Virus record (IMG/VR): IMGVR_UViG_3300034375_005370 | Location: 1-42,233 of that record | DNA: 42,233 nucleotides | From: a virus | Reading direction: 5' to 3' (one strand) | In this document: one piece after another, positions 2,130 to 32,051 of the stretch | Layout: the number at the start of each line of letters is the position of its first letter | Numbering within the stretch: position 1 is the stretch's first letter | Translations under genes and position numbers: made by a program | The notes under the pieces: generated by a model | Databases searched by the model: none | Told to the model about the DNA's origin: nothing | The model's input: only the letters and a program-made list of their open reading frames with translations

Positions 2130-2621
2130 TTATTCTACTGTTATGTTAAGCCTAAGAACTACTCCACTAGCTGTATATGTTGGTGTCCCTCGCGTGACTG
2201 CTCCTACATATAAATAATTTGAGTTACTAATATTAAACCCAATTGGAGTAAATGAACTTGGCTGACCATATTGGCTATTGATAAGGTCTGTGTAACTAGA
2301 GATATTTGCTACACCTATGATCTTGGCTGCATTTGCATCTGATATGCTAACTGCTGAACCTTCAGTTCCTAGAGTTGGTGCTGCTGTATCAAGAGATTGA
2401 GCAAAGATGACATCCATTTCAATACCCTGGTCATCCTTATCTACAACTTTTACATCATTGATAGTGCCTCTGATATGAATGTCTTGCGCTCTAGCTGCTC
2501 CTACTACATCAAACTTTTGAAAGTCTGCCACAATATCACCTGCTGCATGAGTTGCTGCATCTAGTGTTAATGTAACATCTACTATTTGAGTTCTAAAATT
2601 GCTTACGTTTGTTGCTCCCAT
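2130..2621 (-). CDS. hypothetical virion structural protein (163 aa)
   Basis: I do not recognise a family. The sequence is rich in small and beta-forming residues (V, T, A, S, N) with few charges, and has no signal peptide or membrane segment. It lies between the tail adaptor gene and the LamG protein, so a small particle-surface or tail protein is likely. The leader carries a short A-rich hexamer repeat (ATAGAA three times, then variants) just before the ATG, and the ribosome site is weak. A promoter-like pair lies about 50 nt upstream (2663-2695), so the gene may be transcribed separately as well as by read-through. Confidence 0.75.
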   Translation of the reverse strand: MGATNVSNFRTQIVDVTLTLDAATHAAGDIVADFQKFDVVGAARAQDIHIRGTINDVKVVDKDDQGIEMDVIFAQSLDTAAPTLGTEGSAVSISDANAAKIIGVANISSYTDLINSQYGQPSSFTPIGFNISNSNYLYVGAVTRGTPTYTASGVVLRLNITVE

Positions 2622-2662
2622 TTTCTGTTTCCGTTTCTATTTCTATTTCTATTGGAGAATAA

Positions 2663-2695
2663 ACTATAGTTAATTCACTTTTTATTATTTGTCAA
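2663..2695 (-). promoter_or_regulatory. candidate sigma70-type promoter before gene 2130-2621
   Basis: On the minus strand TTGACA lies at 2695-2690. TAACTA follows after 17 bases, and TATAGT after 21. The stretch TTGACAAAT plus an A-rich run plus AAGTGAAT resembles the promoter at 8852-8881. The -35 box is perfect; the choice of -10 box is uncertain. Confidence 0.5.
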
Positions 2696-2696
2696 A

Positions 2697-3308
2697 TCAT
2701 ACGCCAATCCTGTATTGAGTAGAGCCATGAGTGGTTACATAGACAGGTTGCTGTTGATTTTGTTGCCTTTCAAATTTCTCTATTTCAAATAAGATCATTT
2801 GTTCCGCTTCATCCATAGCCATTTGTGCCTTGCCATGCTGACCTTCTGCTTTGAGCCAATCTGCATAGCAGACATTAATCAGGTATGGAAGAAAAATGTA
2901 AGGTATTGTTTGAGTGCCTACTGTAGTATATGTTGATACCTTAGTTCTAAAACGCACAAAAACAGTTCCAGAATCGCTATCCCAGTCAATTAGGTTAGCA
3001 CCATTACCATCAAGCTCAAAAGTGTATTCTTGAGGAACCTGAGTGCTTCTAGGGTTAACATCATATATATTAAAGAACCCTGATATGGCCGTTTCGCCAC
3101 CTTGCTCATAATCTATCAAGCCATTACTGTCAGGAGTGCGTTCTTCAATGGTTATGACTTCAGGCCATTCCCACCTCTCCCATGCAAGCCTAATCCACTT
3201 ATTAAAATAAGCATTAAGCTGTGTCTGTTCAACTGTTTGTAGATCATCAATGCCTATTAAAGCCTTAACTCCATCCTCAAATTCACTGTATGTGCTTGTT
3301 CTTGCCAT
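2697..3308 (-). CDS. probable tail adaptor/head-to-tail connector protein (T7 gp11 / P22 gp4-like)
   Basis: At 203 residues it matches the usual length of podovirus adaptor proteins (T7 gp11, tail tubular protein A; P22 gp4). The N-terminal part is helical (LNAYFNKWIRLAWERWEWP). The C-terminal helix (ADWLKAEGQHGKAQMAMDEA onwards) is typical of the adaptor's helical bundle. The middle (residues about 60-135) is beta-rich. It sits after the capsid and decoration genes, as in many podoviruses. Such proteins form a ring below the portal and receive the tail nozzle. The assignment rests on pattern and position, so it is moderate. The ATG has no clear ribosome site. Confidence 0.6.
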   Translation of the reverse strand: MARTSTYSEFEDGVKALIGIDDLQTVEQTQLNAYFNKWIRLAWERWEWPEVITIEERTPDSNGLIDYEQGGETAISGFFNIYDVNPRSTQVPQEYTFELDGNGANLIDWDSDSGTVFVRFRTKVSTYTTVGTQTIPYIFLPYLINVCYADWLKAEGQHGKAQMAMDEAEQMILFEIEKFERQQNQQQPVYVTTHGSTQYRIGV

Positions 3309-3310
3309 AA

Positions 3311-3673
3311 TTAATAGTGGCTATTAGTGTAGCCTTTGACTTTAAATTGCGGATTGTCCCTATAAAAACTATTAAGGAAGTGCTTATCTTCCCATACATG
3401 ATCGCCTTGATCCTGCCTCCATCTAAAGAACTCTCTGGCAGGGATTACTCCTTTAAGTTGCCCTAATCCATCAATTCCCTTGTTTTGGTTATCAAGAACT
3501 TTTTTTTCCATTAATGCATCTGCTTCTCGCTTTTTGAAGCTAAATTCTTTTACATCCCTAGATTCGCTAAATCTAAAATATCTTTCAAGTCCATCCATAT
3601 ACGCTGTTCCATTCATTCCCCGCAATTCAGGAACATCATACATATTATCTGCAAGTTGGTCAATTTCGCTCAT
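3311..3673 (-). CDS. hypothetical protein in head gene cluster (120 aa)
   Basis: No family recognised. The protein is hydrophilic and mixed in charge, with several aromatic residues (RYFRFSESRDVKEFSFKKRE; FFRWRQDQGDHVWEDKHFLN) and no membrane segment. It lies 2 nt upstream of the adaptor gene and 56 nt after the decoration-like gene, so it is probably co-transcribed with structural genes and may be a small virion or assembly protein. Confidence 0.7.
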   Translation of the reverse strand: MSEIDQLADNMYDVPELRGMNGTAYMDGLERYFRFSESRDVKEFSFKKREADALMEKKVLDNQNKGIDGLGQLKGVIPAREFFRWRQDQGDHVWEDKHFLNSFYRDNPQFKVKGYTNSHY

Positions 3674-3729
3674 AATGTATAAGTTAAAGGGGTGGCCTAA
3701 CTTTGTAGACCGCCCCCCATTAAGATTGT

Positions 3730-4191
3730 TTATTTAATTTCGCTGAAGTCTCTGATACGAGCTGCGATTACAACTTCACCTGTAGAGATGTCACTGTTTG
3801 AATCTCCTGTTGGTGTGAATACCGCGCTAAGAGTCTTAGTTGCAGCATTGTCATACACTTTACAGTTACCTGTATTAGCATCCGAACCAACGGTGAAATA
3901 TGCACCAGTATTGATTTTAGAGCTAACTGCGGTTCCGTCAGCGTGAATTGTTGCAGATGCAATGAATCCGTCTGCGTCATCGTCATCACCTACTGTGATT
4001 GCCAAATCTGAAGAACTTGCTCCATCGAACTCTGTCTTTAGATAAAACAACACCTCATCCACGCACCCATCTTTAGGGATAGTGAACAGATTTTCTGTTT
4101 CAGCACCACCAGAAGTAGTGCTAGTCAAATCTGCTGCTGTGATTGTTTTAACGTGAGTGTAACCTAATAAGGCTGCTTCTTGAACTGTCAT
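3730..4191 (-). CDS. probable capsid decoration/minor head protein (153 aa)
   Basis: It follows the major capsid gene by 25 nt. It is small, acidic and rich in beta-forming Ala, Thr, Asp and Gly residues, with an aspartate cluster (VGDDDDADGF) near residue 67. Start ATG at 4191 has a good ribosome site (AGGAGATATATAAC). Small beta-rich proteins directly after the capsid gene are often capsid decoration or cement proteins. That role is inferred from position and composition, not from a recognised domain. Confidence 0.65.
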   Translation of the reverse strand: MTVQEAALLGYTHVKTITAADLTSTTSGGAETENLFTIPKDGCVDEVLFYLKTEFDGASSSDLAITVGDDDDADGFIASATIHADGTAVSSKINTGAYFTVGSDANTGNCKVYDNAATKTLSAVFTPTGDSNSDISTGEVVIAARIRDFSEIK

Positions 4192-4216
4192 GTTATATAT
4201 CTCCTATATTGAATTA

Positions 4217-5197
4217 TTAACTAGCAGCTTTAAATGCACCTAATCCCAAAGGATTCTTTACGCAAAGAGAGAGCACCGCGTCACAAAATCCACGCTCACC
4301 CCCACCCTGGTTCTCAAGGCGTTGTGAAGATTCTGCTTTAAGAATCGGAACCTCAATTAAATCGTTAGTTAGTAAATAACCACGATGACGAACTGTTGCA
4401 TCAATGCCACTTCCGCTAGTGCGTCCGTTGAATAGTGAAGGAACAATATAAACTACACCGTAATCACCTTCATATTGCATAACGTTAAGAGTGATTTTCT
4501 TATCGTTTGCATCTTCAGTCACGCGATAAGTAGTATCAGATGCGCGAGCGAAGTCTGTGATTGTGCGTTTAAGAGTTGGTCCTGCAACGAGATATAGATT
4601 ATCTCCTGCTGATCCTACTTGTTCATAACGGCTTTGAAGAACACCCTGTAGAGTATCTTCTGTGAATGAACCCATTGCTGTCGAGTTAACACTTGCAGAA
4701 GGAGTTCTGTATGCTGCGGGAACGTCAGATGGTCCTGAAGCATCAATCCAATCGCCTAAACCGCGAAGTTTGTATGGAGTTACTGCACCAGTTTCTTGCT
4801 GACGATCTTGGTCGGAAGCGATTGCTGATTCAATATCTCTTTTTAATTCACGAACACATTTTGCTTCAGAACGTGCGATTTCACTTGGAACGCCCGCAGT
4901 AGCAACGAGTTGCTGAATATCTGAAACTTGCCAGGTTCTACGAAACTTCTGAACGTAGTTACCAAGTTTTGCTCTATTCGCTGCCTTATTGTCGAATGAA
5001 TTTACGTCTGCCCCTTCTGATACTCCTGCAAATGCGGGTGTATCTAAATCATCGGCTTGCCACTCTACAAAAGTTGCTGTAGCTTTTGATTTCTTTGCCA
5101 TTGACAGAATTGGAGTTTCTTCTGGCTCCAAAACTGTAAGGTCATCTGTGATTTGCTCACGATTACCTGCTGCGTTATATGATGTTGCTAATGCCAC
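4217..5197 (-). CDS. major capsid protein (SU10/DUF5309-like, HK97 fold)
   Basis: This 326-residue protein has the layout of the SU10-like capsid family: an N-terminal stretch with PEETPILSMAKKSKATATFVEW, an acidic ADDLDTPAFAGVSEGAD segment, then VQKFRRTWQVSDIQQLVATAG and a long DNLYLVAGPTLKRTI region. Members form the icosahedral shell with an HK97-type fold. The frame begins with GTG at 5197, preceded by AGGAAAGG at suitable spacing; no ATG fits better. It follows the acidic scaffold gene by 27 nt, the usual scaffold-then-capsid order. It ends in LGLGAFKAAS. Confidence 0.88.
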   Translation of the reverse strand: MALATSYNAAGNREQITDDLTVLEPEETPILSMAKKSKATATFVEWQADDLDTPAFAGVSEGADVNSFDNKAANRAKLGNYVQKFRRTWQVSDIQQLVATAGVPSEIARSEAKCVRELKRDIESAIASDQDRQQETGAVTPYKLRGLGDWIDASGPSDVPAAYRTPSASVNSTAMGSFTEDTLQGVLQSRYEQVGSAGDNLYLVAGPTLKRTITDFARASDTTYRVTEDANDKKITLNVMQYEGDYGVVYIVPSLFNGRTSGSGIDATVRHRGYLLTNDLIEVPILKAESSQRLENQGGGERGFCDAVLSLCVKNPLGLGAFKAAS

Positions 5198-8888: not shown

Positions 8889-11570
8889 TTAATATCCACC
8901 CGCGCATTCCGTTCCCACGCTGTAATTGCTGCCTATATAGATAGGATCGGATACGCACAAATATCTCACGCAGTCAACAGGATCTTTGTAAGCTTCCTCT
9001 CGAGACACTCCCATATACTCCAACATTGCTGTAATTGTGTTTTCGCAACGATCAGAGACATATAATCTAGGTCTATTTTCGTCAGAGAGAGGTTTGTTAC
9101 TATCCCATGCTAGATAATCATTAATTTTCCCTATGCCCTGATCCTCGTCATCGGCAGGTGCGGGTTTAAAGTAGAAGCCTAAATCACCCATCTCTTGAAT
9201 GATATTAGTCTCTCCTGAAGCAGCCTGTTGCGTGTATTTGCCCATTCTAGGGTCAATGATGCGCTCAAATATCTCTGCTTTTCCTTCAATGTCTATGATG
9301 GTCTGTTTATATTCCTCATATCCATAACCTAGAGGTCTTTGACCGCCTCCCGCTTTTCCGATAGGTTTACCTGCTGCATTTGTCCAAGGCAATGCCCATT
9401 CGCCCATCGTGATGTCAGGAAACTCAGCATATATATAAATGTCCTCCCGATAGTCCACAGCAGCCCATAGCATAAACCAAGGCTTAGAACCCGCAGGATC
9501 GCATATATGGTATCTAGTAACTTTATGGTCTGGATCTTTAACAAAAGGTAAATCATCGTGGGGAATTACATTAACGTGCCTATTAAAGCGAGGTAGCCTG
9601 TTGTGGAAGGCTTTAGAAGGGACTCCATGAAGACGAGCAAGCTTAATTTCTAGCGGTTGGCCTGAGAACTGCGCTTCTAGTGCGTCAGACTCCACAAATG
9701 GGTTGTCTCTAGTCCACCAATAGTAGACATTCATGTTTGCGAACTTCTTTGATAGCTGCTTAACGGGCAGTTTCATGTTCACATAGTCAGAGTGCCTTTT
9801 TTCTACCGTTTTTGCACCATTAAGTATCTCAGAAACTAAATCTGTCCACCCCTGTAGCGTTGTAAACGTGAGTAGAAGCTTTCCTCTATAGTCAGTGAGC
9901 CTCGACAATAGCGTAATGACAAGGTCTTTAGGTGCTTCTTCGTCACACCAGATAAAATGAGCTTTAAAACCCTCTGCAACTTGTTTATCATGCTGATATT
10001 GCTTATAGTTGTTGAAATAGATATAAGACCCCTTTTTTCTGCCAGGATGTGGAGGTAAAATCAACTTATTGTCAGTAAACCCATTCTTTTGCGAATATTG
10101 AATGCTATGATTAGGACCCTTTTTTTTGGTCATATTCTTATACTTCTCAGGCAGCATAGCCCAAACCATAGCTTGTTGGTCTTGGATAGATCGTTCCTCA
10201 GATACATGAAAGCAGCGAATTTCGGCTTCAGGGATGTTTTCTAATAACCATACTACTAGTGCTGCTGAGAAAAACGATTTTCCTGAGTTGTGGTGAATGG
10301 CTCCCCCATGGTAATAATTGTGATATACTGGAACATTAAAATCCCATACGCTATCATTTCGGAGGTATTCGACCTTTTCTATCTTGACAGAATAGGTTTT
10401 TATGCTATTATCTCTAAAATATGGTAAGAAAACATAGAATAAACTATCCTGTGGAACAGATTCGCCAATGGATTGAGCAAGACGGCAAAACGCAAGCCTG
10501 GATTGCTCAAGAACTATCGAATACTGTTGACGATCGAATAACACCAAAGCTGATTTACAAAGTCTGTAAAAAGCATAACATAAATTGCCAAAGAACTGGC
10601 CCTCGTAGCGGTTCTGATCACCCAAAGTGGAAAGGAGGTCGCTGTCTAAATAAGAGTGGATATTGGGAAATATTTCTGCCAGATCACCCCATGGTTGTCC
10701 AGAGGAACAAAGCATTGAAGGAGAAACATAGGGGAGAGAAGAAATATATTCACCCAAATAACTACTACTTAGAGCATAGATACGTTGCAGAACAAAAATT
10801 AGGTCGTGTTCTTTCTCCCGAAGAAGTTGTTCATCATCGTGATGGAGATACTCAGAATAACCATCCAGACAATCTTGAAGTTTTTCCAAGCAATGGAGCA
10901 CACCTTGCTGCGACCCTAAAAGGGAAGTGTCCGAACTGGTCAGAGAACGGAAAGAAGAAGCTGAGGGCATTTCAGGATCTCCGAAGAATGAAAGCAAAAG
11001 CTCGTCACCACTTTTTAGATGTCCTACGCTACGGTATCCAACAGGAGTTAAAACTCGATGAGCCTTGGAGCAAGCAAAAGACATCTCGTTGGGCAGATGA
11101 ACACGATATATCTCTTGAGACTCCTTTTTATAAGGTTTCTCTGCTTTTGCTTGAACAAGCTTAACTCCATCCCAAGCTAATACATGAAAGTCAGTATCTA
11201 TCTCAGATATTGGCTTTTTTGCGTCAGCCACAGGATCATAGATCAATGACTCTGGCGCTAAACAACGATTTCCACCGAACACTGTAGCAGAAGTCCATTC
11301 TGACCAATCATTTAGAACTTTTTGCCAACAATGCAGGGTAAATGTCCACTCCAACGGATCTTGAGTTGCCCAATCTTCGTGGTTTTCGATGATGTCAGCC
11401 AATTTCTCTGCTCCCGCAGGATTTCTGGCTATGAGTGCTTCAGCCTGTTCTGTAGATAGGTTGCTTTTTAATATGCCCCTCTCTATCCTAAAGGTATCAG
11501 AATCCCAAGGAAAGCCAAATTCAGGCTGAACATCACTAGTATGTATCCTCTTGCTACTCGTTTTTGACAT
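8889..11570 (-). CDS. terL: terminase large subunit (TerL) precursor containing an intein
   Basis: The 893-residue frame gives a 567-residue TerL after removal of a 326-residue intein (residues 103-428). TerL is the ATP-driven DNA packaging motor and headful/end nuclease. The Walker A loop is split: FGGNR at residues 98-102 continues as SGKS after the intein. Walker B is seen in AHFIWCDEEAP. Nuclease acidic residues appear in YHICDPAG, RIIDPRMGK and DPVDCVRYL. Start ATG 11570 has AAGGA six bases upstream. The C-terminus ends GTECAGGY. It follows two small genes, the first a DNA-binding protein, and precedes the portal. Activity requires splicing, because the insertion breaks the ATP-binding loop. 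Confidence 0.93.
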   Translation of the reverse strand: MSKTSSKRIHTSDVQPEFGFPWDSDTFRIERGILKSNLSTEQAEALIARNPAGAEKLADIIENHEDWATQDPLEWTFTLHCWQKVLNDWSEWTSATVFGGNRCLAPESLIYDPVADAKKPISEIDTDFHVLAWDGVKLVQAKAEKPYKKESQEIYRVHLPNEMSFACSKAHRVLTPVGYRSVGHLKSGDELLLSFFGDPEMPSASSFRSLTSSDTSLLGSQQGVLHCLEKLQDCLDGYSEYLHHDDEQLLREKEHDLIFVLQRIYALSSSYLGEYISSLPYVSPSMLCSSGQPWGDLAEIFPNIHSYLDSDLLSTLGDQNRYEGQFFGNLCYAFYRLCKSALVLFDRQQYSIVLEQSRLAFCRLAQSIGESVPQDSLFYVFLPYFRDNSIKTYSVKIEKVEYLRNDSVWDFNVPVYHNYYHGGAIHHNSGKSFFSAALVVWLLENIPEAEIRCFHVSEERSIQDQQAMVWAMLPEKYKNMTKKKGPNHSIQYSQKNGFTDNKLILPPHPGRKKGSYIYFNNYKQYQHDKQVAEGFKAHFIWCDEEAPKDLVITLLSRLTDYRGKLLLTFTTLQGWTDLVSEILNGAKTVEKRHSDYVNMKLPVKQLSKKFANMNVYYWWTRDNPFVESDALEAQFSGQPLEIKLARLHGVPSKAFHNRLPRFNRHVNVIPHDDLPFVKDPDHKVTRYHICDPAGSKPWFMLWAAVDYREDIYIYAEFPDITMGEWALPWTNAAGKPIGKAGGGQRPLGYGYEEYKQTIIDIEGKAEIFERIIDPRMGKYTQQAASGETNIIQEMGDLGFYFKPAPADDEDQGIGKINDYLAWDSNKPLSDENRPRLYVSDRCENTITAMLEYMGVSREEAYKDPVDCVRYLCVSDPIYIGSNYSVGTECAGGY
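10384..10411 (+). promoter_or_regulatory. promoter of the antisense HNH gene, inside the intein coding region
   Basis: TTGACA (10384-10389), 16 bases, TATTAT (10406-10411) on the plus strand. The predicted start (about 10418) is only two or three bases before the HNH ATG at 10421, so the mRNA would be nearly leaderless. The promoter lies within codons for the intein's C-terminal splicing region on the other strand. Confidence 0.7.
10421..11164 (+). CDS. HNH homing endonuclease encoded antisense within the TerL intein
   Basis: This 247-residue protein has an N-terminal helix-turn-helix-like region (QTDGK-type segment, KTQAWIAQELSNT, residues 23-35) and HPKWKGG at 67-73. The HNH motif comprises LEHRYVAEQKLGR (117-129), EEVVHHRDGD (134-143), NN 146-147, NLEVF 151-155 and H161. 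Such enzymes cut DNA with a metal held by the His/Asn residues, and often mobilise introns or inteins. The gene lies wholly inside the intein, opposite to terL. Its C-terminal residues about 195-247 overlap intein residues 34-88, including block B. It has its own promoter. Homing of this intein is inferred. Confidence 0.9.
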   Translation: MVRKHRINYPVEQIRQWIEQDGKTQAWIAQELSNTVDDRITPKLIYKVCKKHNINCQRTGPRSGSDHPKWKGGRCLNKSGYWEIFLPDHPMVVQRNKALKEKHRGEKKYIHPNNYYLEHRYVAEQKLGRVLSPEEVVHHRDGDTQNNHPDNLEVFPSNGAHLAATLKGKCPNWSENGKKKLRAFQDLRRMKAKARHHFLDVLRYGIQQELKLDEPWSKQKTSRWADEHDISLETPFYKVSLLLLEQA

Positions 11571-16911: not shown

Positions 16912-17087
16912 TACACTGTTTTGTCAAGAAATTCTTCAATTTCTGCTGCAATTAAGGATGTTTCATCTACATACATTAGGCAGGAGGCCAGTATATATCT
17001 GGCTTCCTCGAATAATTCATCTTGATCTTCCAGTATTTGCTCTAATACTGCTACCTTATCTTCTATATTTTTAATTTCATTTTTCAT
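16911..17087 (-). CDS. small acidic helical protein (58 aa) after ribonucleotide reductase
   Basis: Start ATG 17087 overlaps the ribonucleotide reductase stop by four bases (ATGA); a non-ATG start further upstream would intrude into that gene. The protein is acidic and helical (MKNEIKNIEDKVAVLEQILE, then DQDELFEEARYI), probably a coiled coil. Function is unknown. Confidence 0.65.
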   Translation of the reverse strand: MKNEIKNIEDKVAVLEQILEDQDELFEEARYILASCLMYVDETSLIAAEIEEFLDKTV

Positions 17088-19063
17088 TTTACTGGACAAG
17101 CTCCACCTGCACATTCTGTTCCTGACACTTCGTGATGCCCATTAGCATCATCTAGGTCAATTTCTTTAAGTTTATTAACGTATTCATCGTATGTAGATTT
17201 GTCAACAACTTCTTGAGGTAAATATTTATACCCTAGATCAGCAGCAGTTTTTGTAGGATCTGCGCGAAACAAAAACGATACACCTATGTAATTATCCCAA
17301 TTGCGCTCTAGCCAGTCTATTATGGCAGGAACTTCAGATGGGTCATAGCTGATAGTCGAAGATACATTTTGATGACACCAGTTAGTTTGTAGCATTAGGT
17401 ATCTATCTAATTGTTCTACAGCAGTTTCTAAGTTAACTTCTTTGCCATTTACCACGTCAAATTCTACACCATCATTGCAAACTGGAAACGTAACTAACAT
17501 TGAGTCTGCATCTGTTGGATGAGGAAAAACATTGTATTCTGCATCCTGAAGGATTTTTACAACTGGGTCATGCTTAGAAAAGTTGACATTGTTAAAGATG
17601 TATTTGCCTAGTGGTTTGTGCATCCCTTCGGTGGTATCATAGATTTTACTCATTGTTCCAGAAGGTTTTACAGTAGTAACATTCTTCGGTCTAGGTAGAT
17701 TCATCTCATCTGCCATACCATAGGCTGCTGAAGTAGCGATTCTTTCCAGTGATCTATAGTCGTATGCGTCTAAATCAGGTCTTTTAGCGATTCCTGTGAT
17801 ACCAACTCCGCAAAGGTGTAAGAACTCGTTGTTTTGATGCCAAGTATCCTGTAATATCCCATCTCTGAGGTCTACACAAGTTTGTCTGTAGTTTGCCCTT
17901 GAGATTAGTCTTGTTGCTTCCATGAGTCCAGAGTGATCGCCCTTGAATTTGGCTAGATCAATCTCAGATAGGTTACAAAAGCTTTTGTTGCCCAGTAGGA
18001 TTTCAACACAAGGATTACAGCCTTTAAACCAAGGTGCTTTTTTGAGTGCAGCTTCACCGTTGATAAACCCTGGTTCTGATCCACCTGCTTTGACCATAAG
18101 ATCAAAGATGTTTTCCATTTCTTCGCGCGTTGGCTTGCTATGGAAGAGTAGGGAATTGTTGCTTTGACATCTGTGCTCGTTGTCATACAACCACCAATCT
18201 TTCTTTGCTACCGCAAAATCCATCCATTCGGGTTCACTATAATCAAATAAGGCTATTTCAGCACTTCTACGGCTGCTTAAAACCGTTCCGAGATGATTTA
18301 CTACATCTAGTATATCCATCTTCTTTAAAAGGTTTCCTGAACGTTGTGAGAGGATCTGAGCTATTCTAGTATAAGCCTTTGAAATTGCTTCTGTTCCGCT
18401 AGAAATCCACCCATAACCTTTAAGTCTATCACCCGCAGGTCTAATCTCACTAAAGTCAAGCACAATTCTTTCAGCAGGATATTTCATTGCGAGAAGTTTG
18501 CCTACAGACTTAGCCCATGCTTCAGCACTATCGCCTATTTTTAATGTCCATGTTTCGCTCTCAGCATCCCAAAATTCCTCGTTGTGTTCCTGACCGCCCT
18601 TAGTTAATCTGCTCGATTCTACTACAACTATGTCTGATACAGGCTTGGTAAAACCAGTGAGAGTGCCTGTTACTGGCTTAAAACCTACTCCGCAACCCTG
18701 TAACAGCAGCCATAAGATGTCTACGCAATCATTGACAGTTTCAGCATAGGTGAATGAGCAGTTAAACATGGAACTTTCCCTGCGTCTACTAATTTCTGTG
18801 CCACCTAACCATAAAGTGCGACCTGCTACTGCAACCTTTCTGCTGAGAAGTAGTTGTTTAAGCTCAAATAGTTCAATTGACTCATCATCTGTCAATTCTC
18901 TATCTATCGCTCTTTCCCATAGCCATTTCTGGTGTTCAATTACACGATCAATGGTTTCGTGCCATGTTTCAAAGACAGTTCCTTCATCATTGAGAGGTCT
19001 ATTGTAAGTTCTTCTAGTTATTACTTTTGCTCTAGTGCTTGGATTGTTAACTATTGATTCCAT
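17084..19063 (-). CDS. nrdJ: class II (adenosylcobalamin-dependent) ribonucleotide reductase
   Basis: This 659-residue enzyme reduces ribonucleotides to deoxyribonucleotides for phage DNA synthesis. The catalytic set Asn350, Cys352, Glu354 (NPCVE) and Cys363 keeps the spacing of the monomeric Lactobacillus leichmannii-type enzyme. Cys102 (FNCSF) is the partner redox Cys, and the tail pair Cys651/Cys656 (CAGGACPVK) would re-reduce the site. The N-terminal RTYNRPLNDEGTVFETW is typical. No nrdA/nrdB pair or glycyl-radical activator is present, which fits the oxygen-independent B12 class. The gene starts inside the end of the 71-residue gene and is coupled to the next. Confidence 0.93.
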   Translation of the reverse strand: MESIVNNPSTRAKVITRRTYNRPLNDEGTVFETWHETIDRVIEHQKWLWERAIDRELTDDESIELFELKQLLLSRKVAVAGRTLWLGGTEISRRRESSMFNCSFTYAETVNDCVDILWLLLQGCGVGFKPVTGTLTGFTKPVSDIVVVESSRLTKGGQEHNEEFWDAESETWTLKIGDSAEAWAKSVGKLLAMKYPAERIVLDFSEIRPAGDRLKGYGWISSGTEAISKAYTRIAQILSQRSGNLLKKMDILDVVNHLGTVLSSRRSAEIALFDYSEPEWMDFAVAKKDWWLYDNEHRCQSNNSLLFHSKPTREEMENIFDLMVKAGGSEPGFINGEAALKKAPWFKGCNPCVEILLGNKSFCNLSEIDLAKFKGDHSGLMEATRLISRANYRQTCVDLRDGILQDTWHQNNEFLHLCGVGITGIAKRPDLDAYDYRSLERIATSAAYGMADEMNLPRPKNVTTVKPSGTMSKIYDTTEGMHKPLGKYIFNNVNFSKHDPVVKILQDAEYNVFPHPTDADSMLVTFPVCNDGVEFDVVNGKEVNLETAVEQLDRYLMLQTNWCHQNVSSTISYDPSEVPAIIDWLERNWDNYIGVSFLFRADPTKTAADLGYKYLPQEVVDKSTYDEYVNKLKEIDLDDANGHHEVSGTECAGGACPVK

Positions 19064-28190: not shown

Positions 28191-28221
28191 ACCCTAGTTC
28201 ATTGAGAGCTAGGGTTTTTTT
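28191..28221 (+). terminator. strong terminator of the rightward operon
   Basis: ACCCTAG (28191-28197) pairs with CTAGGGT (28209-28215), followed by a run of seven T. The converging minus-strand gene stops inside the 3' arm (TAG at 28211-28209). Confidence 0.85.
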
Positions 28222-31200
28222 ATTATTACATTAGCATCTCCAGCAACCCCCTTTTTTACTTCGGCTTCTGGAAGTATTTTTTGAACAAACTCAATAAAAT
28301 CACTCTGCTTATATCCCTTTTGAAAAGTTCCCTTTCCAGTTATAACCTCTCTTGGTCCTACTAATTTTGTTTTAGGATTATTGAGCGTTTTCTTAATACT
28401 GTTCCAACCCATTACATTGACAAAAGCCTCGCCTTTATTATCCAACACCCTATATATACCTTTAAGTATATCAACCCGAGTCTGTTCTGGAACCACATTT
28501 AATACAGCATTGTTTATGATTTTATCATAACTATTAGATGGGATGTCATTTACATTTTCAAAATCAGGATCTATAACTCTTTTCTCTGGCTGAGAAAATG
28601 GTTCATACCCATCTATATTATATCCTTTATCTTTTAGCGCCTTGGTTCCATGGCCTAATCCAGCACTAAAATCTAGGATTCTCTCGTTTTTATTTATGAA
28701 TTTTTCCCCTATTTTTTCGTAAGTGCCTTTCGTGGTTGTTATTTGTGTTCCTTTTGCATCTTCTGGATTGTAGCCATTTGCAAATAAATAATCCCATGTT
28801 GCAGGAGGCATATCTCCGCCCTCCTCTTTTGGGATAACCTCATTAGATATTTTTTTCTTGGGCATAAATTTAGCCTTAGTTATATTGTATGCTATAGATG
28901 GCGATGGAACATCTATTGATTCTATTCCAACCAACCCATCTATATATGTTGACTTAAATGTATTATATGGGTTTCCCTCTCCTGTTGGTCTAGCATTGCC
29001 CTCCCTCTGCTTATATCCAGTTTTACTTTGTGTTCTCTCTTTCATCTGCCTTTCAGCCCATTTTTTTAAGTCTGTATCTTTAATTGGGATTACATATTTA
29101 TCTGGACCTTTTATGCCATATAAAACCTTATACCTTTCTGGCATTGCACTGTCTTTTTTATACATATCCCTTGCGTAAGTATTAAGGTCATCAATAATCT
29201 CATCTACCGTCATTAAAGAGCCGTCCTTATTGAGGTATTTTTCTGGCATATCTCTTCTTGCCAATCTAGCATTTTCTCTAAGGTAATGCATATCAGTGAA
29301 TTGCAAAGAAACCCCAATCGCTCCACCCTTCTTTTGAACCAACTTAATACCAAATGGAGCAACTATTCTATTGGCTGCAAATCCAGTAAGCTTACCATCT
29401 TCACCAATATATTGCATTGTAATATTTGCAAGCTTATTCATTTGGGTAGAGTTTTCCCAGTTGTCCAGTGTTGTTAAGTATTTTTCCAACTGATCTGATA
29501 GATCCTCAATTTTACCCTTTTGAGACATTATTAAATTTTGAATAAACCTTCTATCTAGTATTATCCCATAGTTGCCCTCTTTGTTTTTTAAATCAAATGG
29601 AACAACTCCACCAGTTTCAGCTATATCTTTCAAATTTTTAATTGAATCCTTTTTAACTTTCTTGTCTGGAACAATGCCAACCATATTTTCACCTTGAGCG
29701 TTTTTGTGGCTGACAATGCTCATATTGGGATTGGCAGTCTTTATCTTGGAAACTTCATTTGGGGTAATCTTTCTATATCCCAATTCGTTGTTCATTTCCT
29801 CTTTTGCTCTATGATCTTGAATCTTTTTAACTTGATGCCAGTTGTTTATAAGCTTTTTGATTTCAGGGTTCCTTTTTAACCTTTGTGCCGCACCTTTAAT
29901 TTCGTCACCGTTTTGTTTTATAAACCCATTTTCTTCAAGCGTTCTCCTTATGGCTGAAGAAAAGAACTCTAGCCCTGTATCATCTAAAGATTCAAATATG
30001 TCTGGATTTTTTTCAAACATCAATCTATAATGCTCTGCGCTATATTCATGTAGAAAATCATCGTATGTTCTTATAACATCTCCACCTAAAGCATCATTAT
30101 ATCCTGAAATGTAATCAACTGCCTCATTCGACAGTCCCTTGATTTTTGTTCCGTCACGAAGGACAACCTCTTTGTTTCCTGTCGTTCCAAGTCTAAGGGC
30201 AGCTATGATATTATCTCCCTCTGGTGAGTTTAGCATAGAATCAAATGCAGCGTGACCTATTTCGTGAGCATTATTCCCCACTAACTCATCTACCTTTTTA
30301 GTAGTTGCAGTTTCTCCGTTGATATAAACAGTTCTATTATCTAGTCTATCATAGGCCGCTTCCACTTTATCACCAAACATATCTACCATCTCTTGATTTG
30401 AGAGTATCTTTAGCTTAAAGTTGTTTCCCGCTAACTTAGCAGATGCAAATTGTATTTGTGCTTCAGGAGGTAGTTTTTTAAAGGCTTTTACTTGATCTTT
30501 TTCTAATCCTTCTTCTATAAATTGAGCGATTGTATTTTTCTGCCTCTTGCTTCCTGCACCAGAACCAAGACCACCCTTACTACCGCTAAATGCTGCTGTC
30601 ACTGGTCCTAATAGTCCTGTTGCAGCCGCTCCACCTGCTTCACCAACATCACCTGTAGCTGCATATTCTAATGCCGCATTGAGTGCACCTATTTCAATAC
30701 CATCTGCTATTGTATCAAAGGCATAGTCACCAAATTTAGTTCCACCCATATCATAGGCTTTTTTTGCTAATCCTCTTATTTTGGGGTTTATTTCTGGATT
30801 TGATGCAACCCTAAGAAAAAACCTCTTACTAGTCCCTGGGTCTGTCATCATTTTAAATATCTGATTGGCATTTTCACCCAATTTCTCAGTAGTTCTAGCT
30901 GCTCTTTTTGCTGCTGAATACATAAACTCTGGAACAGCTTTGCCTCCTAGATGCCCTAGTGCTGCACCAATTTGACCTCCAACTATAGCACCCCAACCTC
31001 CACCAATTGTTGCTCCAATAGTCCCTCCAACTGTTGCACCTTGCCAAGCACCCTGTCTCTTTCCTACTTCAGTAGTTTTTCCTGCAAGATATTTAATTGG
31101 CTTTGATTCCAACACCCAACTTGAAGATTTTCCTGAGTATTTAGGTATAGCAGCCGCCATTCTAGGTAGATATGCTGATTTTCTTGCAGCTATAGACATT

Positions 31201-32051
31201 CCTGTTTTTGCTAATTTACCTGGACCTGAAACCACAACTAAATTACCTGGGTCTGTTAGTAATGAAGATGCATTTTTTAAGTTTTCATAAACTTCTTCAG
31301 GCTTAAATATTAAACCGTATTGTTGTTGAGCTTTTTCTTTCCACCTTCTGCTTCTTAGTCTTTCTGATTCTGCCTGAATTTCTTCCTCTAGCTTTGGTCC
31401 ACTCCAATAGTGTGTTCCATATTTGGCAAGCTCTTTTATTTGAGTAACTGCCCCTGAAGCTATTCTAGCATAGTCCTCTATGTTTTGTGCTCCACTTTCA
31501 ATTATACTCTTTTCTAACTTTGATAAGCCCTGACCACCTTCATACTGTGCAACATCCTCTTGAGTTAACCCTAATACACTAGGATCTCTCTTTAAATCCC
31601 TCATCCCCTTATGTTTGAAGTGCTCTTTCAGCGCAGTAGGTAATTCTCTTGCTGCACCCTTTGCCATTTCCTTGATGCCAATAGCTGCTTGCCCAAACAT
31701 TCTAGTTGCCCTGCTAATATCCTCTAATATGTTTTCGGTAGGAGTTTGCAGATTTCTTTTTCTCTGCCTTATCTCATACATTTCTGGCGTTTCTGGTGCA
31801 TTTCTAGCTTCAGGTGAGTTAAAAATATCATCCAATTCCTCGTCTGTAGGATTTTCACCCTTTGGAAACTCAAACTCCAATATCTGTCCTGTTTCTTCGT
31901 TAATAACTTCAAGCCACTCATATTGAGTATCGTCAACAACTTCTTGAGGTTGATTGTCTAACTCTACCTCTGGTTCAGGCATTGGTGCAACCTGTTCACC
32001 TGTTGGTAGTGTTTTTCTATCTAAGCTAGGTGGTAATGCTCCGTATAACAT
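28209..32051 (-). CDS. large polyvalent ejection protein: glycine zipper, HEIGH metallopeptidase-like and C-terminal methyltransferase regions
   Basis: 1280 residues. Residues 1-130 are acidic. A glycine-zipper hydrophobic region (GAWQGATVGGTIGATIGGGW, about 334-353, continuing to about 366) could cross a membrane. NNAHEIGHAAFDSML (594-608) is a zincin-type HExxH-like metal site, with HEYSAEHY near 668 as a possible third ligand. Residues 1124-1270 look like an S-adenosylmethionine methyltransferase: ILDFSAGLGHG (1125-1135), GYEP (1148-1151) and NNAVLNVVP (1180-1188). It follows the other ejection genes, where T7 has gp16. It probably enters the host with the DNA and may cut host proteins and modify DNA; both activities are inferred. 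Confidence 0.78.
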   Translation of the reverse strand: MLYGALPPSLDRKTLPTGEQVAPMPEPEVELDNQPQEVVDDTQYEWLEVINEETGQILEFEFPKGENPTDEELDDIFNSPEARNAPETPEMYEIRQRKRNLQTPTENILEDISRATRMFGQAAIGIKEMAKGAARELPTALKEHFKHKGMRDLKRDPSVLGLTQEDVAQYEGGQGLSKLEKSIIESGAQNIEDYARIASGAVTQIKELAKYGTHYWSGPKLEEEIQAESERLRSRRWKEKAQQQYGLIFKPEEVYENLKNASSLLTDPGNLVVVSGPGKLAKTGMSIAARKSAYLPRMAAAIPKYSGKSSSWVLESKPIKYLAGKTTEVGKRQGAWQGATVGGTIGATIGGGWGAIVGGQIGAALGHLGGKAVPEFMYSAAKRAARTTEKLGENANQIFKMMTDPGTSKRFFLRVASNPEINPKIRGLAKKAYDMGGTKFGDYAFDTIADGIEIGALNAALEYAATGDVGEAGGAAATGLLGPVTAAFSGSKGGLGSGAGSKRQKNTIAQFIEEGLEKDQVKAFKKLPPEAQIQFASAKLAGNNFKLKILSNQEMVDMFGDKVEAAYDRLDNRTVYINGETATTKKVDELVGNNAHEIGHAAFDSMLNSPEGDNIIAALRLGTTGNKEVVLRDGTKIKGLSNEAVDYISGYNDALGGDVIRTYDDFLHEYSAEHYRLMFEKNPDIFESLDDTGLEFFSSAIRRTLEENGFIKQNGDEIKGAAQRLKRNPEIKKLINNWHQVKKIQDHRAKEEMNNELGYRKITPNEVSKIKTANPNMSIVSHKNAQGENMVGIVPDKKVKKDSIKNLKDIAETGGVVPFDLKNKEGNYGIILDRRFIQNLIMSQKGKIEDLSDQLEKYLTTLDNWENSTQMNKLANITMQYIGEDGKLTGFAANRIVAPFGIKLVQKKGGAIGVSLQFTDMHYLRENARLARRDMPEKYLNKDGSLMTVDEIIDDLNTYARDMYKKDSAMPERYKVLYGIKGPDKYVIPIKDTDLKKWAERQMKERTQSKTGYKQREGNARPTGEGNPYNTFKSTYIDGLVGIESIDVPSPSIAYNITKAKFMPKKKISNEVIPKEEGGDMPPATWDYLFANGYNPEDAKGTQITTTKGTYEKIGEKFINKNERILDFSAGLGHGTKALKDKGYNIDGYEPFSQPEKRVIDPDFENVNDIPSNSYDKIINNAVLNVVPEQTRVDILKGIYRVLDNKGEAFVNVMGWNSIKKTLNNPKTKLVGPREVITGKGTFQKGYKQSDFIEFVQKILPEAEVKKGVAGDANVIIKKP

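Follow-up and report, generated by a model that had tools for sequence, protein, structure and literature searches.

The window analysed here is a stretch of viral DNA of 42,233 nucleotides (IMG/VR record IMGVR_UViG_3300034375_005370, positions 1 to 42,233). On its minus strand, an open reading frame of 893 aa (8889-11570) encodes a terminase large subunit (TerL) interrupted by an intein. The intein spans 326 codons (10287-11264, minus strand; TerL residues 103-428) and sits in the P-loop, between an N-extein (11265-11570, minus strand) and a C-extein (8889-10286, minus strand); with hyphens at the splice points, the junctions read FGGNR-CLAPES...AIHHN-SGKS. Entirely within the intein, on the plus strand, there is a gene of 247 aa for an HNH endonuclease (10421-11164), whose product matches PF13392 HNH_3 (2e-10) and PHROG HNH families (to 1e-20). 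A sigma-70-like promoter sequence precedes this gene on the same strand (10384-10411).

Among the residues expected at the splice sites, Cys1 (codon 11262-11264), the block-B His at intein residue 69 (11058-11060) and the C-terminal His-Asn (10287-10292), all on the minus strand, are invariant in 46/46 aligned ORFs. The intein is followed by Ser+1 (10284-10286, minus strand), and the +1 residue is S, T or C among the TerL ORFs compared. Pfam Intein_splicing matches TerL residues 119-428 (E = 1.6e-6) and Terminase_6N matches residues 429-642 (E = 2.6e-4), both slightly short of the curated cut-offs. When the alignment of related inteins was compared with solved inteins (best 9e-24, 4o1r), the N-terminal and C-terminal stretches matched separately, and no solved-protein match was reported for the middle of the intein alone by the same profile comparison with solved structures. 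The AlphaFold model gives block pLDDT values of ~93-98 for intein residues 1-92 and 290-326, and of ~36-61 for a linker of residues 93-289 (10398-10988, minus strand), which lies opposite most of the HNH gene; Foldseek searches with this model retrieve solved inteins. In the alignment supplied to AlphaFold two phage-collection rows were left out and the row of locus L008 is without its final four residues, the model of the window being unaffected. By its residues, its predicted Hint fold and its in-frame insertion in the P-loop, the intein of the window is a canonical class 1 Hint-type intein.

In the HNH protein the core comprises residues 118-161 (10772-10903, plus strand), where H119, R120, H139, N147, N151 and H161 are invariant in 130/130 relatives. 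A search of the PDB with the HNH profile yielded no solved relative at 0.01, and the single-sequence AlphaFold model of this protein is poor (pLDDT 38). Position 1 of the HNH codons is opposite position 1 of the TerL codons, and HNH position 3 faces TerL position 2. The C-terminus of the HNH protein (10989-11164, intein residues 34-92) is encoded opposite the N-terminal Hint half and its block B. As for the promoter-like sequence, the -35 hexamer TTGACA (10384-10389) and the -10 hexamer TATTAT (10406-10411), separated by a 16-nt spacer with TG before the -10, agree with the consensus at 11/12 bases. Between the -10 and the HNH ATG at 10421 there are 9 nt, so that a transcript started there would be near-leaderless. 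A preliminary description of this DNA had pointed to clean splice ends (Cys1, His-Asn, Ser+1) in the TerL P-loop, to a complete 247-residue HNH protein on the opposite strand inside the intein, and to TTGACA, 16 bases and TATTAT ahead of it; all three observations agree with the analysis presented here.

The same arrangement recurs in other phages. Used as a query against phage records, the HNH protein led to Pectobacterium phages (Ymer and others) and to Pseudoalteromonas phage PHS3; both cases again show the HNH gene antisense within a terL intein, the HNH protein of PHS3 having 236 aa. Scanning viral contigs with a profile made from three sequences retained 80 loci, and in 80/80 the HNH gene is antisense in one long open frame and in the same codon phase; two further scans, started from other sub-groups, brought the total to 239 loci, of which 131 are distinct at 90% HNH identity. 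In 130/131 distinct relatives the HNH gene runs antisense to a single uninterrupted TerL-intein frame, and the codon phase never varies among them; because the scans pick loci by HNH similarity and not by strand, this proportion was not selected for, and it is valid only for HNHs close to that of the window, as the census was seeded from the HNH protein and not from TerL inteins at large. The single exception, locus L280 (330-1028), is a free-standing member of the HNH family outside any intein, and may be related to the gene from which the antisense one was derived. The host gene was examined in 46 ORFs, each of which either matches a terminase large subunit family or shares the terminase P-loop. 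The insertion falls at two points, either ahead of the (S/T)GK of the P-loop (101 cases) or directly after its GK (26 cases). A scan of contigs from cellular genomes found only 5 relatives, 1 of which (L103) has the same architecture.

Two of the public records deserve a comment with regard to annotation. In the record of PHS3 (L022, KX912252.1, terL at 2541-4667) the C-terminal part of TerL and the HNH protein are given, while its N-terminal part is left out along with the intein. In that of Ymer (L021, OP748252.2, 2577-4841) the intein-bearing TerL is annotated as 'hypothetical protein', and the antisense HNH gene is unannotated.

The constraint acting on the two overlapping frames was studied by counting substitutions at TerL codon position 2 versus position 3 in 13 pairs of relatives; these counts are descriptive, since the pairs have branches in common. 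The position 2/position 3 ratio is low in the C-exteins (0.25) and on either side of the overlap (0.31 ahead of it, 0.29 beyond it), but reaches 2.8 to 4.0 across most of the HNH gene. At the ends of the overlap the ratio is intermediate, with values of 0.66-1.13 where the HNH C-terminus covers the N-terminal Hint half; both proteins are probably constrained in this stretch, as block B on one strand and the HNH C-terminus on the other share the same DNA. The switch of the ratio inside the overlap indicates that over most of its length the HNH protein is conserved and the TerL linker drifts: by these substitution patterns the HNH protein is under strong purifying selection, with the TerL frame there merely kept open.

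Keeping this frame open is not a trivial feature of the HNH sequence. Synonymous recoding of the HNH gene of the window introduces on average 6.4 stops in the TerL frame, and 0/300 recodings are stop-free; likewise, 47 HNH proteins recoded synonymously acquire a mean of ~2 to 9 stops each in the TerL phase, while the real genes have 0. The other two antisense phases of these 47 genes contain plenty of stops. In this phase, a Phe followed by Ile, Met, Thr, Asn or Lys is unencodable without producing a stop in TerL. Such dipeptides occur at 0 of the 183 Phe of the antisense HNHs (41 expected) and at 12 of the 32 Phe of ten free-standing HNH relatives (9 expected), which thus show no avoidance; 9/10 of the latter have antisense stops in every phase. 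Resampling places stops in all three antisense phases, so the phase is not forced by stop frequency, and its constancy suggests a common origin.

For 38 non-redundant loci, the expression signals ahead of the HNH gene were examined. When the 90 nt preceding the HNH start are scored for sigma-70-like sites, the best site has a median score of 10.7, compared with 5.9 for shuffles and 4.6 for control windows on the same strand (p = 3e-22 vs control windows), and Shine-Dalgarno-like sites are present at 20/38 HNH starts and at 27/715 control ATGs (p = 2e-16); as the loci are akin to each other, both p-values overstate the evidence. Two layouts can be recognized: a near-leaderless one, in which the -10 ends 6-9 nt before the start and there is no Shine-Dalgarno site (the window, L026, L027, L030, L032, L033, L050 and L092), and a leadered one, mostly with a Shine-Dalgarno site. 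Taken by itself, the window has no more promoter-like matches than shuffles do (3 vs 3.5), and the case for a promoter-like element there rests on its position, its strength (11/12) and its recurrence in relatives.

Several points of the preliminary description can be judged from these data. As one refuting outcome it had named a lack of constraint on the plus-strand frame in homologous inteins; this was examined with the opposite outcome, the HNH frame being the constrained one over most of the overlap. Its view that the endonuclease is separate from TerL is borne out by the antisense position of the gene in nearly all distinct relatives, with transcription and translation signals of its own. 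The additional claim that this design does not burden the spliced protein does not hold, because the DNA of the HNH gene is still read in the TerL direction as a linker of ~197 residues, and the precursor is not relieved of that length.

Related phages provide information on the mobility of the element. Pseudoalteromonas phage AL, whose host species, Pseudoalteromonas marina, is the same as that of PHS3, aligns to PHS3 with 94.7% and 96.8% identity on the two sides, and its sequence is uninterrupted at the point of a 900-base insert in PHS3, which corresponds exactly to the 300-codon intein with its HNH gene; this is the one case found of an exact empty allele in a near-identical phage. An intein-free P-loop, GGNRSGKS/T, is present in L011, L012, L013 and L023. 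In another pair, L008 and L010, the terL flanks are 97.3% and 96.2% identical and the inteins only 58.1% identical: that of L008 carries the antisense HNH gene, while L010 has at the same terL site a mini-intein of 132 residues (1113-1508) without HNH, which reflects either loss of the HNH gene or a different allele. The pair represents an exchange of alleles, an outcome that general recombination could yield as well. HNH distances track those of the intein better than those of TerL (rho = 0.53 vs 0.39; partial rho = 0.46 vs 0.26); for example, L085 and L099 share 72% identity in HNH, 71% in the intein and 38% in TerL. On the HNH tree there are 8 changes of insertion point, compared with 24 when the labels are shuffled, and by this count the insertion site follows HNH ancestry. 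Altogether, the element appears to be present or absent as a unit in related phages, and the PHS3/AL and L008/L010 comparisons, as comparative evidence, fit movement of the element as a unit into an allele lacking it.

These results are very probably explained by a mobile intein whose homing endonuclease is encoded as a separate gene on the opposite DNA strand. In such an element transcription and translation of terL would run on across the insert. The two Hint halves would fold, a flexible linker would be made from the DNA complementary to the HNH gene, and splicing would remove the intein to leave an active TerL. From the promoter inside the intein an independent antisense transcript would give rise to a free HNH endonuclease; this enzyme would cut the intein-free terL P-loop DNA of a co-infecting phage, and repair from the occupied copy would insert the whole element. 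The transcript and its timing, the splicing, the cleavage and the repair are steps that we infer, while the anatomy is read from the sequence.

A more ambitious version of this scheme would have a single-origin, widespread class of inteins with functions on opposite strands, where the antisense promoter has two tasks: early production of the nuclease, in many cases from a near-leaderless mRNA, and, through its transcript, a delay of terL until late, so that the element times its own host gene; we consider this version rather unlikely. It is less likely still that the HNH protein is a packaging factor working with the terminase, located in the intein by chance and kept for packaging instead of homing. 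Terminase-adjacent HNH genes can act in packaging, as reported for HK97 (discussed in PMC10448857), and the HNH gene is indeed found in terL in nearly all cases. Yet phage AL, ~95-97% identical to PHS3 around terL, is without intein and HNH together, L010 has intein and TerL without HNH, the HNH gene is entirely within the intein, and its divergence follows the intein over TerL, all of which argue for a homing endonuclease over a packaging role.

Loss of the endonuclease is common in inteins, and a mini-intein allele exists in L010; the HNH frame of the window might be a decaying, unexpressed relic of an earlier insertion, the intein having been reduced in effect to a mini-intein with a long linker. 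The strong purifying selection on HNH, the catalytic set intact in 130/130 relatives and the recurrence of promoter-like and ribosome-binding sites leave this reading with only a slim chance. An even slimmer one goes to the suggestion that the antisense transcript is the main function, restraining terL until late, with HNH secondary: a promoter-like site in terL pointing against terL, recurrent in relatives, would suit this role, but the selection on the HNH protein is left unexplained, and phage AL manages without the element. Codon bias can yield long antisense ORFs, but we give virtually no credence to the plus-strand ORF being a shadow of conserved sense coding, whether for an in-frame endonuclease domain or a functional linker, as substitutions in the overlap pile up at HNH wobble positions and not at TerL wobble positions, the linker is modelled at low confidence, the HNH protein matches HNH families, and the sole Pfam matches in the 46 TerL ORFs are to intein, Hint and terminase families. 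Both the in-frame endonuclease and the shadow ORF were rejected by the codon-position counts.

The mobile intein with its nuclease gene on the other strand can be placed with respect to known systems. Dassa et al. reportedly described in 2009 'fractured genes', in which split inteins have a free-standing endonuclease gene between their halves. These share with the present case a free endonuclease protein from an intein-bearing locus, but there the host gene is broken in two, whereas here the TerL frame runs unbroken over its 893 aa, with the endonuclease gene overlapping it from the opposite strand. Free-standing phage HNH_3 endonucleases (Thibault gp148, phiH, Soul22) have the HNH core family in common with that of the window, but are ordinary genes beside their neighbours, with stops in the antisense frames. 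The mycobacteriophage P-loop TerL inteins TerL1-a and TerL1-b, reported to splice and cut (PMC5050341), resemble the present one in the terL P-loop site, the Hint splicing domain, the long insert between the Hint halves and the sporadic occurrence. Usual bifunctional inteins carry the endonuclease as a domain within the intein protein itself (PMC6801210, PMC8966425), whereas here it is encoded antisense, as a protein in its own right that has its own start and a promoter-like site. The ShiLan element and the Pacc40 insertion are also phage insertions that are open in the frame of the host gene and hide an HNH, presumed to be for homing, in a different frame, but no splicing domain was found there (PMC11855218); in the window there is a complete intein with a full Hint domain, and the HNH gene is on the opposite strand. 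Finally, the Didymium L2066 group I intron is a self-removing element with a homing endonuclease gene on the antisense strand; expression of its product, I-DsqI, and cleavage of the empty site by it have been demonstrated (PMC9548176). That element is an RNA intron in rDNA of a eukaryotic nucleus with a His-Cys enzyme, and its other strand need not stay open for translation. In the literature searched, with most subscription journals outside the search, we found no description of an antisense endonuclease gene inside an intein. We regard the two-strand design as a variation on the homing intein, and not as a new kind of element.

This variation amounts to a second way to build a mobile intein, with the nuclease unfused from the splicing domain and separately controllable. 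The ~130 distinct conserved two-strand cases offer a natural test of how an antisense gene is kept up, through stop avoidance, forbidden dipeptides and codon-position switching. As the cases of PHS3 and Ymer illustrate, such genes are lost in annotation. Useful tools may also come from inteins with a linker that tolerates much change in sequence, and from a family of HNH enzymes whose probable targets are terminase P-loops.

Elsewhere in the window, all on the minus strand, we noticed a major capsid protein of the SU10 type (4217-5197), which supports a tailed phage, and a ribonucleotide reductase alpha chain with a B12-dependent (class II) insertion domain (17084-19063). An ORF of 1280 aa (28209-32051) has a weak match to a methyltransferase domain close to its C-terminus.
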